Positions 24,602-33,352 of a stretch of DNA of 64,000 bases are shown in pieces. The notes under the pieces are model-generated. The model saw only the letters and a list, made by a program, of their open reading frames with translations, ran no database searches and was not told the DNA's origin. Location of the stretch: NCBI GenBank assembly GCA_025056155.1, contig JANWWL010000007.1, forward strand, positions 62,001-126,000, written 5' to 3'. Every line of letters starts with the position of its first letter. The stretch's first letter is position 1. The position numbers and the translations under genes are program-made. This DNA is from Sphingomonadaceae bacterium. GTDB lineage: Bacteria > Pseudomonadota > Alphaproteobacteria > Sphingomonadales > Sphingomonadaceae.

Positions 24602-25462
24602 ATGGCGGATAGCGAGGTGGCCCCGCCCGCGCGGCCGGTGGGGGAGGAACGCGACGGCAACGTTCGCGCGCTGGCCCGAGGGTTGGCCGTGCTCCAGGTC
24701 ATCAACCGCAAGGGCTCCGTCAGCATGATGGAGATCGCCCGCGGGGCGGCCATTCCCTACCCCACGGCCTGCCGGATCGTGCAGACGCTCATCGAGCTGG
24801 GGATGGTCGAGCGCGAGCCCGGCCGCAAGCGCTACCGGCCGACACCCATGGTGCTCACCCTGTCGCGCGGCTACAGTGCCGAGGACGAGTTGGTGCGCGT
24901 GGCGCGCCCGTACCTGGTGGAGCTCACGCGACGCTTCTTGTGGCCCGTGTCGCTGTCCACCCGAGTGGGCAGCTACATGATGGTGCGCGACAGCACGCAC
25001 CGGCTGACGACTCTCACGCTGCACAACTACGCTCCGGGCTTCACTTTGCCCATCGTCGAATGCGCATCGGGCAAGGCATACTTGGCCTTCTGCGACCCGG
25101 AGGAGCGAGCCCTCATCCTGCAGGGGCTGTTCGCCCTCGACGGGCCGGCCGAACGCATGGGCCGCCTGCTCCTGGCCGAGCCGACTCTTCTCGAGCGCAT
25201 CCGCGCCCAGGGGCACGCCACCCAGGCCCGCAACGTCTACACCGCGCACCCGGGCAAGACGTCGTCGCTCGCCGTGCCCGTGTTCCGCGACGACCGGGTG
25301 GTGGGCGCCTTGGCCCTCATCTTCTTCGCATCCGCCATGCGGATGCGCGAGGCCGAGGAACGCTTCGCCCCGGCGCTGAAGGCCACGGCGCACGACATTA
25401 CCCAGGCGCTCGCAGCCACGTCCCGGCACGGGGCCGGCCCCGAAGCTCCGCAGGGCGGATAA
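24602..25462 (+). CDS. IclR-family transcriptional regulator
   Basis: A 286-residue regulator. The N-terminal winged helix is NVRALARGLAVLQVINRKGSVSMMEIARGAAIPYPTACRIVQTLIELGMVE, followed by the IclR effector domain (PVSLSTRVGSYMMVRDS, ASGKAYLAF, SSLAVPVFRDDRVVGALAL). The relation is closer to the MhpR-like branch that senses aromatic acids than to acetate-operon IclR. It lies in the middle of the island and is the only IclR seen. Inverted repeats related to TCCGC-AGG-GCGGA recur at six flanking promoter regions, one copy overlapping the last codons of this gene, so it is the best candidate for controlling the island. Confidence 0.9.
   Translation: MADSEVAPPARPVGEERDGNVRALARGLAVLQVINRKGSVSMMEIARGAAIPYPTACRIVQTLIELGMVEREPGRKRYRPTPMVLTLSRGYSAEDELVRVARPYLVELTRRFLWPVSLSTRVGSYMMVRDSTHRLTTLTLHNYAPGFTLPIVECASGKAYLAFCDPEERALILQGLFALDGPAERMGRLLLAEPTLLERIRAQGHATQARNVYTAHPGKTSSLAVPVFRDDRVVGALALIFFASAMRMREAEERFAPALKATAHDITQALAATSRHGAGPEAPQGG
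25447..25459. promoter_or_regulatory. Inverted-repeat regulatory motif, site 4
   Basis: TCCGCAGGGCGGA, identical to site 3, overlaps the last codons of the IclR gene and lies 115 bp before the TonB receptor 2 start. Because it is coding sequence, conservation by chance of codons is possible, so confidence is lower. Confidence 0.45.
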
Positions 25463-28627: not shown

Positions 28628-29496
28628 GGCCGCCCCGCCGGGCGCTGCTGGCAGCGCTGGTCGCCGGCCTGGCCGCACGGGCGCTCGGCTTGGGCCGCAA
28701 GGGCGGGGCGCTTCCCCCGCCCGACGGCCCGTCGGCCCAGGACCTCGAGCATCGGGGCACGCTCGTGCGGCTGTGGACTCCGGCCGCCCCCCACGAACGC
28801 ACGCGGGCCGTCGCCTTCTCGCACGGGGCCAACGCCAGCGCCCGGCGCTACGACGAACTGTGCCATGGCTTGGCCGAGGCCGGCCACGCCGTGGCGGCCG
28901 TGACCCATCCCGACAGCCCCGAACATCCGGCGAGCCGGCGGCCGACCAGCCCGGCCGACGGCTGGCGCCAGCGCCTGGCCGACCTACGCGCCGCACTCGA
29001 CCTGTTGGCCACCCGGTTTCCCGGCCGCCCGCTGGCCGTTGCAGGCCACAGCTATGGCGCACTGGTGGCCCAGGCGCTGGGCGGCGCGCGTGTAGCTTGG
29101 GCGGGGGATGGCGGCCCGCTGCCCGACCCCCGGGTGCGCCGGGTGGTGGCGTTCTCGCCGCCGGGCCCGTTGCCGAGCGTGATCGGGGCGGAGGGCTTCG
29201 CCGCGATCGCCGTTCCCCTGTTCGTGGCCACGGGAACGGCCGACGTGGTGCCGCCCGTGGCGACGACCTGGGAGGCGCACCTTGCAAGCTTCGAGGCCGC
29301 GACGATCTCGCCCCGGTGGGCGTGGGTCGGTGATCGGGTGGACCATTATTTCGGCAATCGCATCGGCCGGCCCGAGCGCGCCTTCGACGAGCGCCAGGCC
29401 CGCCTGTTCGGGCACGCGCTGGCGGCTGCGGTCGCCTTCCTCGAGGAGCTCGGGCCCCCGCCCGCGGCCGACGGCGTGCGCCTTCTGGTGCGTTAG
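28624..29496 (+). CDS. Alpha/beta hydrolase 1
   Basis: A 290-residue hydrolase starting at a TTG that overlaps the previous stop (TTGA). The N-terminus RPPRRALLAALVAGLAARALG looks like a signal or membrane anchor. The nucleophile elbow is GHSYG in LAVAGHSYGALVAQAL, the oxyanion loop is FSHGANASARRYDEL, and the late His is in DRVDHYFGN. The layout resembles chlorophyllase/lipase-like family members. The stop overlaps the convergent dioxygenase stop. Substrate unknown; export is suggested, not certain. Confidence 0.82.
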   Translation: MRPPRRALLAALVAGLAARALGLGRKGGALPPPDGPSAQDLEHRGTLVRLWTPAAPHERTRAVAFSHGANASARRYDELCHGLAEAGHAVAAVTHPDSPEHPASRRPTSPADGWRQRLADLRAALDLLATRFPGRPLAVAGHSYGALVAQALGGARVAWAGDGGPLPDPRVRRVVAFSPPGPLPSVIGAEGFAAIAVPLFVATGTADVVPPVATTWEAHLASFEAATISPRWAWVGDRVDHYFGNRIGRPERAFDERQARLFGHALAAAVAFLEELGPPPAADGVRLLVR

Positions 29497-30332
29497 GCCT
29501 GCCACAACACGGGGAACAGCGCGTCCGGCGGCGGGGCTCCGGGCACCATGGCGGGATGGTCGGAAAGACCGGCCACGTGCACGGACAGGGCGTCGGGCGC
29601 CCACACCACGTCCGAGCCCAGCCAGCGCGTGGTGAAGGCCACCCGCCGGCGCCCGCGGCCGGCCGCCCGGCTGGCGTGGATGGTGCGCGGATGAATGAGC
29701 AGCGCATCGCCCGCCCGCGCCGTCCACACGCGGATGTCGGCGTCGGGGGCCGTGGCCCGCGCCAGCAACTCGTCCCACGGGCGATAGCCCGGCAGGCGGA
29801 CGTCCTGCCGCGACAGGGGCGAATGGTAGCGCCAGCGGTCGTGGTTCGAGCCGGCCAGGGTGAGCAGCGGAGCGTCCTCGGGGCCCACGTCGGTCAGGGC
29901 CACCCACAAGCTCGGCTGCTGCTCGCCCTGGAAGGGAAAGGTGCACACGTCGTTGTGCCACGGGGTGGCGGTGCCGGGATCGGCGGCCTCCTTGATGAAG
30001 GTGGCGTCCATCCAGAAGCGCACGCTGCGCGCACCGGTGATCCGGCCCACGAGCTCCGCGGCCGGGCTGGACCTCAGCCAGTCGAGGAAGGTGGTGTCGG
30101 TCGACATGCAGTTGCGCAGCTGGATGCCGCCCTCGCCCGTGCGGTGAATCGACGGGGGATTGCGCGGCCCGACGCTTCCCACCAGCCGTGGCGGGCAGCC
30201 CGTGGCGAAGGCGGCCCGGCACCGCTCGATGGCCGCAAGCAGCCGCTCGACCCAACGGGCGTCGAACGCGCCCTCGATCCGGGTGCAGCCTTCGGCAGCG
30301 TACTGCGCGACGTGCTCAGGGCCAATCCGCAT
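29493..30332 (-). CDS. Phytanoyl-CoA dioxygenase (PhyH) family Fe(II)/2-oxoglutarate oxygenase
   Basis: A 279-residue non-heme iron oxygenase. The metal triad is visible as H-x-D in PWHNDVCTFPF and the distal His in LIHPRTIHAS, with Arg after it for 2-oxoglutarate. PhyH members hydroxylate acyl-CoAs, alkaloids or other small organics. The ATG overlaps the upstream membrane-protein stop by one base (TGATG); a GTG one codon earlier is an equally coupled alternative. It ends convergently on the alpha/beta hydrolase with shared stop bases. Confidence 0.88.
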   Translation of the reverse strand: MRIGPEHVAQYAAEGCTRIEGAFDARWVERLLAAIERCRAAFATGCPPRLVGSVGPRNPPSIHRTGEGGIQLRNCMSTDTTFLDWLRSSPAAELVGRITGARSVRFWMDATFIKEAADPGTATPWHNDVCTFPFQGEQQPSLWVALTDVGPEDAPLLTLAGSNHDRWRYHSPLSRQDVRLPGYRPWDELLARATAPDADIRVWTARAGDALLIHPRTIHASRAAGRGRRRVAFTTRWLGSDVVWAPDALSVHVAGLSDHPAMVPGAPPPDALFPVLWQA

Positions 30333-30880
30333 CACGACCCCTGCGCGAAGGGTAAGGCGCGAGTCCTGGCGGCAAAGCGCGCATCAGGCGGATGGTGATC
30401 CCAGCGCAGCGAGTTGGGGATGTTGGAATAGTGCACGCCCACGTTGATTACCCACAACCCGACGAGCGCGGCGAACGTGCCCACGGAGAGGGTGGAACCG
30501 TCCACCAGCCACAGCCCCAGGCCCGCCTGGAACAGCCGCCAGGGAAGGAACAGGCAGGGCACGATCACCCACACGGGCGAGCGCCACCGCTTCCAGGCCA
30601 GAAGCTCGAAGCCGATCTGCACGGCGAAGAACAGGAGATACCAGCCGAGGAGTGCCCGCACGACGGCCTTTCCCCCCAGGATCCCGTCCACCACCAGGGT
30701 GAACGCCGGCATCAGGAAGCCCACGGCCCAGATCACCATGAGCCACGCGCGGAACACCGCACCCGTGGGCCGCGGGCCTGGGAAGGGCGGCCCCGGCCGG
30801 GTGCGCACCTTCGCCCACCACAACACCCCCGCCGCGACCGCGAGGAAGGCCAGGTTAAGGGCCGCGATCGTGCCGGTCAT
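30332..30880 (-). CDS. Small integral membrane protein, unknown
   Basis: A 182-residue protein with about five hydrophobic segments (AALNLAFLAVAAGVLWW, AWLMVIWAVGFLMPAF, LGWYLLFFAVQIGFELLAW, VWVIVPCLFLPWRLFQAGLGLWL, FAALVGLWVINVGVHYS). No family recognised. The start was set at MTGTIAALN because the first membrane segment follows. It is first in a two-gene operon with the PhyH oxygenase and divergent from alpha/beta hydrolase 2 across two motif copies. It may be a permease-like or electron-chain accessory protein; nothing in the sequence decides this. Confidence 0.7.
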   Translation of the reverse strand: MTGTIAALNLAFLAVAAGVLWWAKVRTRPGPPFPGPRPTGAVFRAWLMVIWAVGFLMPAFTLVVDGILGGKAVVRALLGWYLLFFAVQIGFELLAWKRWRSPVWVIVPCLFLPWRLFQAGLGLWLVDGSTLSVGTFAALVGLWVINVGVHYSNIPNSLRWDHHPPDARFAARTRALPFAQGS

Positions 30881-30935
30881 GGGCCACGCCGTTCCCCGCC
30901 CGCCCCGAGCCCGCAAGCGTCAGGAGGCCGGCCTC

Positions 30936-30967
30936 TCCGCCCTGCGATGATTTCTCCACCCTGCGAC
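30936..30967. promoter_or_regulatory. Tandem regulatory motif copies, sites 5a and 5b (reverse orientation)
   Basis: TCCGCCCTGCGAT (30936) and TCCACCCTGCGAC (30955) are two direct copies, 19 bp apart. Read on the minus strand they contain GCAGGGCGGA and GCAGGGTGGA, matching the core of sites 1-4 and 6. They lie between the divergent membrane-protein/PhyH operon and alpha/beta hydrolase 2. The outer half-site is degenerate in both. Confidence 0.5.
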
Positions 30968-31019
30968 GAAGCGGCCGGTGCCCATGGCCCGAGCGGACGC
31001 CCCGCCCTGTGGCCCGGCC

Positions 31020-31784
31020 ATGCGCAAGGCCTACGTCGACACGCCCCATGGCCAGCTGCACCTGCGCGACACGGGGGGTGGGGGGCCCGTGCTCCTTCTC
31101 CTTCACATGACCCCGCTGTCGGGCGCCATGTTCGCCCACCTGGGGCCGGCCTTCCCGGGCGTTCGCCTTCTCTGCCCCGATCTTCTGGGCTACGGCCGCT
31201 CGGACCCGAGGCCCGCCGCGTGGAGCCTCGGCCAGTGGGCCGACGGGCTTGCCGCCCTGCTCGACGGGCTCGGGCTTCCCACGGCGGCCGTCTACGGTGC
31301 GCACCTGGGCGCGGCCGTGGCCCTTGAGCTTGCCGTGCGGCATCCGGGACGGGTCCGGCGGCTCGTGCTCGACGGGCTGCCCTTCCCCACCCCGCAGCTC
31401 AAGGCGGCGCTTGCCGCGATGGGCGGCGCGCCGCCGCCCGGCGGGCTTGCCGAAGTGGTGGCGCGGGTGGAGCGGCTGCTCGAGGAGTTTGGTGGGCTCG
31501 ACCCCTTCGCCGCCTGCCGCGACTATCTGGAAACGGGCTTCGTGTCCTCGGCCGCCGTCCTTCAGGACTATGCGCCCGAGGATCGGCTGCGCGCCGTCAC
31601 CGTCCCCCTTCTGGTCGTGGGGGCCGACGGCGACAGCCAGTGGCCAAGTTTCGCGGCCACGCTGGCGGTCCGTCCGGATGCGGCGCGGCACGCGTGGCCA
31701 GGCCCGCATCCCGTCCACGACCCCGCGCGCGCCGCCGCGTTCGCCGGGCCCTTGCGCGCGTTCCTGGCGGAACCTCCGCCCTAG
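31020..31784 (+). CDS. Alpha/beta hydrolase-fold protein 2 with His at the nucleophile position
   Basis: A 254-residue MhpC-like alpha/beta fold protein. The oxyanion segment is LLHMTPLSG, followed by LLCPDLLGYGRSD. The nucleophile elbow reads VYGAHLGAAVALEL, so the usual Ser of G-x-S-x-G is His. The acid strand is LLVVGADGDSQWP, and a late His is in GPHPVHDP. With Ser absent, ordinary ester hydrolysis is doubtful. I chose ATG 31020 because the conserved domain starts right after it; 30978 and 30984 are possible. It ends convergently on the FAD oxidase, sharing CTAG. Confidence 0.78.
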   Translation: MRKAYVDTPHGQLHLRDTGGGGPVLLLLHMTPLSGAMFAHLGPAFPGVRLLCPDLLGYGRSDPRPAAWSLGQWADGLAALLDGLGLPTAAVYGAHLGAAVALELAVRHPGRVRRLVLDGLPFPTPQLKAALAAMGGAPPPGGLAEVVARVERLLEEFGGLDPFAACRDYLETGFVSSAAVLQDYAPEDRLRAVTVPLLVVGADGDSQWPSFAATLAVRPDAARHAWPGPHPVHDPARAAAFAGPLRAFLAEPPP

Positions 31785-33352
31785 TCGAGCCCCAGCGCGC
31801 CGGGGTTCAGGATGCCGTGGGGATCCAGGGCGGCCTTGATGGCCTGGACGAGCGCTCGGCTGGGAGCGTCCCGCGAGGCGAGCCAGGGATAGACCCGACC
31901 CACCTGGAGGTGGGCGCCGCCATGCCGGGCCATCAGCGCGATGATCTCGGCCTTCATCCGCAGCGCTTCGGCCCGGGCGGCCGGATTGTCGGGATACTGG
32001 GGCAGCCCGGCCAGATGGTCAGGGGGAACCGTGCGCTCGTGGTAGATGGAGCGCGCATCGGGCCAATAGAAAGTGGGCTCGTAGACGAAGGCGTTGGGCC
32101 CCACGCTCATGAACATCCGGCCCGAGGTGATGCCGAAGCGCTCCATCACCGGGGCCTGCTCGGCGAAATAGGCCTCGAGCTCGGCGTGGAAGGCCGCCAC
32201 CCGATCGTGGGGCAGCAGCGTGTGGAACGGCACCCACCGTTCGCCCTTAGGCCCCAGGACGTTGGTGAGCGGCGCGAAGGGCATGGACCGCACCACGGTG
32301 GGCACGGAATTGGGGATTTCGACCGCGCCCTGCCCCACCGCCAGCTCGCGAATGCGGGCGGCCCGGTCGCGCGCCTCGGCAGGAGTCACCCCTTCGGCGA
32401 TGTAGTGGACGGCGTAGGTGGCCCGCTTCAGGTCCTTTTCGCCCGCCACCGCCATGCGGGCCAGGGTGCGGACCCCCCGGGTGAGCGAGCCTTCGCCCTT
32501 CCACACCCGGGCGGCGATGTCGGCCTTGGCGGCCACCCCCTTCTGCCGGCCGATCTGGCCTTGCTGCAGCGTGGCATCCAGGCCGAAGTTCTCGTCGTCG
32601 AGCGCTTCGACGGCGATCCGACGCATCGCCTCGTGCAGGGCCTCGAACCGGGCGAAGTCGAACGACAGCGCCTCGTAGTGCGGGCGGCGCCGGATCAGCT
32701 TCAGGCGCACGCGGGCCTTGATGCCGAAGGCCCCGCAATCGCCGGTGAACAGGCCGGCTAGGTCGGGGCCATAGAAGCGGAAGAAGGGGGTGCCGGTCGA
32801 CAACAGTTCCCCCGTGCCCGTCACGACGTCAAAGCCCACGAGCGATTCGGCCGAGACTCCCCATATTCCCGTCCCGTGCGAAATCGAATGCTGGCTCATC
32901 GAGCCCGCAACCGTGGCCGCCAGGCCCGAGAAGGGGCCGAAGAAAGGCGTCCGCAGCTCGTGGGGAAGGAGCGCGTCCCGGAGTTCCGCCCAGGTGACTC
33001 CGGCCTCGACGGTCACGACGGCGTTCGTCGCATCGACCGTGATGGCCTTGAGCCGCGATGGGTCGACGGTGACACCCCCCGGCCGAGCGTGCGTGTAGCC
33101 GTCGGTGTAGGATGCCCCCCCGCCCCGCACGACGACGGGCGCGCGCGCCTCGGCCGCCACGCGCACCACGGCCGCAAGCTCGTCCACCGAGCCTGGGCGC
33201 ACCACCGCCAGCGGCACCTCCACCGCCCGAAGCACGTCGGTTGCATAGAAGCGGCGTTCGACCTCCTCGGTCAGCACATGGGCCGGCCCCACGATTGCCG
33301 CCAGCCGCTCCACCAGCCCCGGTGCGTCCGCCGGGCGTGCCGCCGTCGCCAT
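31781..33352 (-). CDS. FAD-linked oxidase, PCMH/VAO-type
   Basis: A 523-residue flavoprotein of the vanillyl-alcohol-oxidase superfamily. The PCMH FAD domain is clear (PLAVVRPGSVDELAAVVRVAAEARAPVVVRGGGASY, then VTVEAGVTWAELRDALLPH and GDCGAFGIKARVRLKLI). The C-terminal cap ends RALVQAIKAALDPHGILNPGALG, as in VAO and 4-cresol dehydrogenase relatives. Such enzymes oxidise alcohols, phenols or hydroxy acids. GGAGGACGGAC precedes the ATG. It is the last gene of the minus-strand operon racemase-like/deacetylase/methyltransferase 3/small partner 3. Confidence 0.87.
   Translation of the reverse strand: MATAARPADAPGLVERLAAIVGPAHVLTEEVERRFYATDVLRAVEVPLAVVRPGSVDELAAVVRVAAEARAPVVVRGGGASYTDGYTHARPGGVTVDPSRLKAITVDATNAVVTVEAGVTWAELRDALLPHELRTPFFGPFSGLAATVAGSMSQHSISHGTGIWGVSAESLVGFDVVTGTGELLSTGTPFFRFYGPDLAGLFTGDCGAFGIKARVRLKLIRRRPHYEALSFDFARFEALHEAMRRIAVEALDDENFGLDATLQQGQIGRQKGVAAKADIAARVWKGEGSLTRGVRTLARMAVAGEKDLKRATYAVHYIAEGVTPAEARDRAARIRELAVGQGAVEIPNSVPTVVRSMPFAPLTNVLGPKGERWVPFHTLLPHDRVAAFHAELEAYFAEQAPVMERFGITSGRMFMSVGPNAFVYEPTFYWPDARSIYHERTVPPDHLAGLPQYPDNPAARAEALRMKAEIIALMARHGGAHLQVGRVYPWLASRDAPSRALVQAIKAALDPHGILNPGALGLD

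Follow-up and report, generated by a model that had tools for sequence, protein, structure and literature searches.

A conserved clade of alpha/beta-hydrolase-fold proteins with histidine at the nucleophile elbow, represented in a gene island of a Sphingomonadaceae bacterium

Introduction

The alpha/beta-hydrolase fold is among the largest enzyme folds. PcaD and the meta-cleavage-product hydrolases retain a Ser at the nucleophile elbow, as do the hydroxynitrile lyases of this fold. Recent reviews describe either a nucleophilic Ser, Cys or Asp, or a D/E-His dyad carried on the usual strands (PMC11878206, PMC7034887). Carboxy lyases of this fold are said to work with such a D/E-H dyad (PMC11878206), and in the dioxygenase HOD a His-Asp dyad activates the substrate and the elbow residue is dispensable (PMC10548524).

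Here we analyze a protein from a Sphingomonadaceae bacterium that departs from these layouts. Its gene lies in a 64,000-nucleotide stretch of contig JANWWL010000007.1 (hereafter, the window), and it had been predicted from the DNA sequence to be an alpha/beta hydrolase in which His replaces the nucleophilic Ser. We refer to it as the GxH protein after its elbow.

Results

Fold and nucleophile elbow

The predicted fold of the GxH protein is a confident alpha/beta-hydrolase fold, in agreement with the original prediction. The protein matches Pfam Abhydrolase_1 (9.6e-15; 55.3 bits, above the cut-off of 25.8) and also Abhydrolase_6, and an AlphaFold2 model built from 45 sequences has a pLDDT of 91.6 and a pTM of 0.90. 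In a Foldseek search with this model the top match is the esterase 4uhc (1.1e-15), and the PDB matches at E values of about 1e-15 are esterases, lactonases and related enzymes. The ATG start of the reading frame (Table 1) is backed by orthologues that start at the same residue; a GTG at 30978, upstream, is also in open frame with it and is missing from the orthologues.

The elbow reads VYGAHLGAA. Where a serine hydrolase has Ser (or Cys or Asp) at G-x-Nuc-x-G, this protein has His95, and there is no Ser elsewhere within the elbow that could take its place. Of the remaining serine-hydrolase features, the beta7 acid is present as Asp205 and the HG oxyanion motif is absent, His29 being followed by Met30. 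His230 aligns beside the canonical position of the beta8 catalytic His. The original prediction had described the other fold elements as intact; this holds for the core strands, His29, Asp205 and His230, but not for the residue after His29, which is Met and not Gly.

Table 1. Features of the GxH locus, in window coordinates
Feature	Position	Strand	Evidence or remark
Operator-like site copy 1, TCTCCGCCCTGCGA, imperfect TCCRC-N3-GYGGA	30934..30947	+	Motif scans
Operator-like site copy 2, TCTCCACCCTGCGA, 19 bp downstream of copy 1	30953..30966	+	Motif scans
Operator-like sites, some imperfect	11476, 17914, 22108, 24598, 25447, 30934, 30953, 36732		In or near island promoters
GxH protein, alpha/beta-hydrolase fold, 254 aa	31020..31784	+	Pfam, AlphaFold2, Foldseek, orthologues
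His29, oxyanion strand (LLH-M-TP), Met replacing Gly of Ser hydrolases	31104..31106	+	Alignment
His95, codon CAC, at nucleophile elbow Y-G-A-H-L-G	31302..31304	+	CAT in four same-genus orthologues
Asp205, beta7 catalytic acid position	31632..31634	+	Acid in 79/88 His-elbow clade members
His230 (GPH-P), at or adjoining beta8-loop catalytic His position	31707..31709	+	Alignment
IclR-family regulator	24602..25462	+	Pfam IclR_C 3.7e-11, HTH_IclR 1.9e-10
PhyH-type (phytanoyl-CoA dioxygenase-like) oxygenase, conserved partner	29493..30335	-	Pfam 1.8e-19, synteny
Small membrane protein, no Pfam match, divergent from GxH gene	30332..30880	-	Conserved beside GxH gene in other orders
FAD_binding_4/FAD-oxidase_C oxidoreductase, convergent with GxH gene	31781..33350	-	Adjoins GxH gene in genomes G002, G003 and G027

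Orthologues and selection

We find that the His is conserved in orthologues from other assemblies. Four proteins from the same genus, Thermaurantiacus, share 63-69% identity with the GxH protein and have the elbow GAHVG. Because the His is encoded by CAC here and by CAT in all four relatives, a read error can be excluded. Full-length orthologues at a greater distance have GGHLG (genome G262) or GGHNG (G038), and GGHNG recurs in three Gammaproteobacteria bins from further assemblies (L081-L083), which, going by their isolate names, come from soda-lake samples. Conservation of the elbow His thus far exceeds what chance or sequencing error would give. Pairwise dN/dS values for the gene within the genus are 0.20-0.34, and the gene is under purifying selection.

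The organism's own genome encodes a second member of the group, a two-domain protein on contig C3 with the elbow GFHSG. Scanning a collection of genome contigs with the single GxH protein as query gave no match, and a scan with a narrower alignment returned mainly Ser-elbow relatives. The same two-domain arrangement, with a His elbow in the first domain and a degenerate elbow in the second, occurs in the protein on contig C3 (L002, 1501-1857) and at four other loci (L011, L019, L022 and L162).

A His-elbow clade

To place these proteins among their relatives we assembled a set of 158 related domains drawn from all loci (elbow residue His in 89, Ser in 31, Asp in 14, Gly in 14 and another residue in 10) and built a FastTree tree with the six elbow columns left out. 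A single branch (support 0.944) holds 88 of the 89 His-elbow proteins, none of the 31 with Ser and 2 of the 14 with Asp. His occupies the elbow in 88 of the 113 clade members, most often in the motif G-x-H-T-G, and the 25 others have Gly (14), Ala (5), Asn (2), Asp (2), Gln (1) or Glu (1). Judging from this tree, the elbow His is not peculiar to the window protein and marks the whole clade.

Other catalytic positions differ as well. The beta7 acid is found in 79 of the 88 His-elbow members and in 13 of the 25 clade members with another elbow residue (Fisher p 1e-4), although many of the latter are second domains of fusion proteins and are degenerate, so that loss of the acid in them may reflect general decay. 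A His in the beta8 loop (window-protein positions 226-236) is present in 27/88 His-elbow proteins as compared to 30/31 Ser-elbow proteins (p 4e-11), and so is absent from 61 of the 88, in a loop that aligns poorly enough for a shifted His to have been overlooked. The residue that follows the counterpart of His29 is conserved as Gly among Ser-elbow proteins (30/31); in nearly every His-elbow protein it is instead Q, A, M, E or W. His-elbow proteins served as seeds for the set and the beta8 loop is hard to align, so these proportions are approximate, but the groups differ strongly. The sub-branch of the window protein (n = 12) retains both the beta7 acid and the beta8-loop His, the latter in a G-x-H-P motif. 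Taken at the level of aligned residues, the clade seems to have undergone a rearrangement of its catalytic machinery. Two points go beyond the original prediction: the His marks a large clade, and the beta8 catalytic His is gone in most of its members.

Promoter sites and a candidate regulator

The promoter of the GxH gene contains the two tandem motif copies that had been noted there, each without the final bases of the palindrome TCCRC-N3-GYGGA (Table 1). This palindrome occurs six times in window positions 1-41000, where 0.7 are expected, and is not found in positions 41001-64000. The pattern TNTCCRCCCWGCGR has nine sites in the 2.2-Mb genome, as compared to none for a reversed control. Of these nine, eight lie on the window's contig, including seven inside the window that are in or close to island-gene promoters. 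Since this pattern was shaped on the island sites, some of its hits in the window follow from that design; its rarity in the rest of the genome does not. Further copies of the core pattern lie on contigs C2 (at 21721) and C3 (at 547174), one on each. Within the window, a 16-base version of the motif is confined to the GxH promoter, and genome-wide it is almost confined to it; the reading that there is no regulon, which this rarity had prompted, was overturned by the 14-base core.

Similar sites are found in relatives. In three of them TCCRC-N3-GYGGA lies between the DUF1838 and IclR genes, and in two of these also upstream of the TonB gene. At one locus (L060) it lies between the membrane-protein and GxH genes, and at another (L058) a site with one mismatch precedes the GxH gene. 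Palindrome sites also occur in the promoter of the IclR gene itself and in neighboring promoters, and the IclR-family protein is probably the owner of this candidate operator. It scores 2.6e-28 against the pcaR_pcaU model, under the cut-off of that model. We conclude that the island, including the GxH gene, is probably under the control of an IclR-type regulator. The proposal that the gene is a regulated part of the island agrees with these data, as the motif is an operator-like site in several island promoters and upstream of the orthologous genes in the genus.

Gene neighborhood

The genes for the PhyH-type oxygenase and the small membrane protein accompany the GxH gene from Sphingomonadales to Gammaproteobacteria. 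The three-gene cluster is kept in the four same-genus genomes (G001-G004) and in G262. The Gammaproteobacteria bins likewise have the membrane-protein and GxH genes in divergent orientation, with the PhyH gene a few genes off. In other genomes the membrane protein is 54-71% identical and always near PhyH and GxH genes. Within the genus, genes for a TonB receptor, PAP_fibrillin, an S33-type hydrolase, DUF1838, IclR, the FAD oxidase, a methyltransferase and PuuE-like and Amdase-like proteins travel along, a list that is subject to local rearrangement and to the reach of each fetched region. The island in the window holds TonB receptors, MFS transporters and several oxidoreductases.

We also compared the neighbors of 33 His-elbow loci in other genomes with those of 20 control loci, whose proteins are relatives with Ser or Asp at the elbow. 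The methyltransferase family is near 12 of the His-elbow loci, the small membrane protein near 10, PuuE-like genes near 8, and FAD oxidase, isochorismatase-like and LeuC-like genes near 7 each, with none of them near any control locus; P values for these counts are uncorrected, several probes came from a locus that was itself among those tested, some genomes contribute more than one locus, and the elbow His is missing at 3 of the 33. We therefore regard this enrichment as a lead and not as a result.

Some His-elbow islands encode LeuCD-like hydratases, isocitrate-lyase-family proteins, HMG-CoA-lyase-like proteins, PuuE-like deacetylases and isochorismatase-like amidases. For instance, a plasmid of Sphingobium sp. 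TomTYG65 (L035) and a second locus (L068) have His-elbow genes clustered with LeuCD-like, HMG-CoA-lyase-like, PuuE-like and isochorismatase-like genes, to which the plasmid cluster adds an isocitrate-lyase-family gene and the second cluster HyuAB. Such a gene set could serve the breakdown of alkylmaleates or lactams; a literature search on it found nothing useful. In a separate observation, an RPE65-type carotenoid-oxygenase-family gene (L061, 7566-8969, minus strand; Pfam 3e-128) lies near the GxH pair of G262, and the window island has a PAP_fibrillin gene. It is speculation that these two genes point to an island for tetrapyrrole or carotenoid breakdown.

Discussion

We propose that this clade, having exchanged Ser for His, uses His-Asp acid/base catalysis without an acyl-enzyme in a catabolic pathway, a reading that we hold to be about evenly balanced between right and wrong. 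An elbow that lacks Ser, Cys and Asp would not be expected to form an ordinary acyl- or alkyl-enzyme. Because the beta8 His is mostly gone and the acid is kept alongside the elbow His, it is simplest to assume that the dyad His is the one at the elbow. A Ser-bound acyl-enzyme would then not be used; the His, paired with the beta7 Asp, would act as general base or acid on the substrate or on water, and this action would cleave a catabolic intermediate at a C-C or C-heteroatom bond. For most clade members only the elbow His could fill this role, as though the His-Asp dyad had shifted to the elbow from its place in the beta8 loop. In the sub-branch of the window protein, His95 and His230 would both be on hand and either could take part. 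The broader idea, that this is a new layout with the dyad His relocated from the beta8 loop to the elbow beside the beta7 Asp, and that it defines a large enzyme family in catabolic islands, is more tentative.

Other readings have to be weighed. The proteins might still be ester, lactone or amide hydrolases in which the elbow His is either a nucleophile, forming an acyl-imidazole, or a base that activates water in place of the Ser. The nearest sequences and folds, which are esterases, lactonases, enol-lactonases and C-C hydrolases, and the retained beta7 acid are consistent with this; however, throughout the clade another residue has taken the place of the Gly that follows the oxyanion-strand His and that normally contributes to the oxyanion hole. 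To our knowledge no alpha/beta hydrolase with a His nucleophile has been characterized, and a limited search of the open-access literature turned up no enzyme with a His nucleophile or GXHXG motif and no account of the clade. On balance we consider such a hydrolase fairly unlikely. Loss of the canonical nucleophile, together with two partner genes that remain adjacent across large distances, would instead fit a pseudoenzyme whose fold is kept to bind a ligand or to hold a partner, either the PhyH oxygenase or the small membrane protein. A mere scaffold would hardly fix a single residue, His, at the elbow (88/113) and keep it together with the acid, though, and the true degenerates of the clade carry Gly, Ala or other residues there, making a pseudoenzyme an unlikely explanation in our view.

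A cofactor-free dioxygenase like HOD, QDO or AqdC seems quite improbable. Asp205 and His230, retained in the window protein's sub-branch, form a possible dyad, and oxygenase genes lie nearby, but the HOD-type elbow is Ser or Ala (PMC10548524) and the beta8-loop His, the residue of HOD's chemistry, is lost in most of the clade. The original prediction was borne out in part: the exchange of Ser for His, the conserved G-x-H-x-G of homologues and the place in a regulated island are supported. Of the functions it had offered, a cofactor-free oxygenase, a lyase or a non-hydrolytic binder, the HOD/AqdC family is not matched at the elbow and a pure binder is less likely, given that the acid is kept alongside the elbow His. 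Finally, the chance that the elbow His stems from faulty sequencing or assembly, or belongs to a lone pseudogene, is practically nil, being refuted by His in all same-genus orthologues with a different codon, by its occurrence throughout the clade and by the dN/dS values.

If acid/base catalysis by a relocated dyad is correct, the gene set of some of these islands would fit the breakdown of alkyl-maleimides or related lactams. A clade that has fixed an elbow His and mostly dropped the usual catalytic His would offer a natural test of how an active site rewires. The current label "alpha/beta hydrolase" may be mechanistically wrong for the entire branch, and His-elbow proteins point to poorly understood catabolic islands.

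Comparison with known systems brings out what is distinctive about the clade. The AidH lactonase (4g8c), the P. fluorescens arylesterase (3hi4) and the Thermogutta esterase (4uhc) share with the GxH protein the fold, core strands, acid position and oxyanion-strand His; they differ in having Ser at the elbow and Gly after the oxyanion-strand His, and identity is about 20-24%. PcaD and the meta-cleavage-product hydrolases BphD, MhpC, HsaD and DxnB2 provide the best curated NCBIfam models and a similar catabolic setting, but the GxH protein scores 53.6 of 255.9 bits with the PcaD model and is far below every cut-off for the PcaD, meta-cleavage-product hydrolase, RutD, MenH and BioH equivalogs. 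Haloalkane dehalogenases and epoxide hydrolases are similar in sequence over the N-terminal half; their nucleophile is Asp, and 12 of the 14 Asp-elbow proteins fall outside the His-elbow clade. Hydroxynitrile lyases of this fold combine an elbow Ser with the hydrolase triad, which the GxH protein, with His for Ser, does not. HOD, QDO and AqdC can use a His-Asp dyad without an acyl-enzyme, in combination with a Ser or Ala elbow and an essential beta8-loop His (PMC10548524), whereas the clade has His at the elbow, as does the GxH protein, and mostly lacks the beta8-loop His. Searches of Pfam and NCBIfam gave no model specific to the clade, and a search of the PDB by sequence gave no close relative of the GxH protein and no clade-specific entry. 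The GxH clade thus represents a genuine and conserved variation on the alpha/beta-hydrolase fold that has so far gone without a name.
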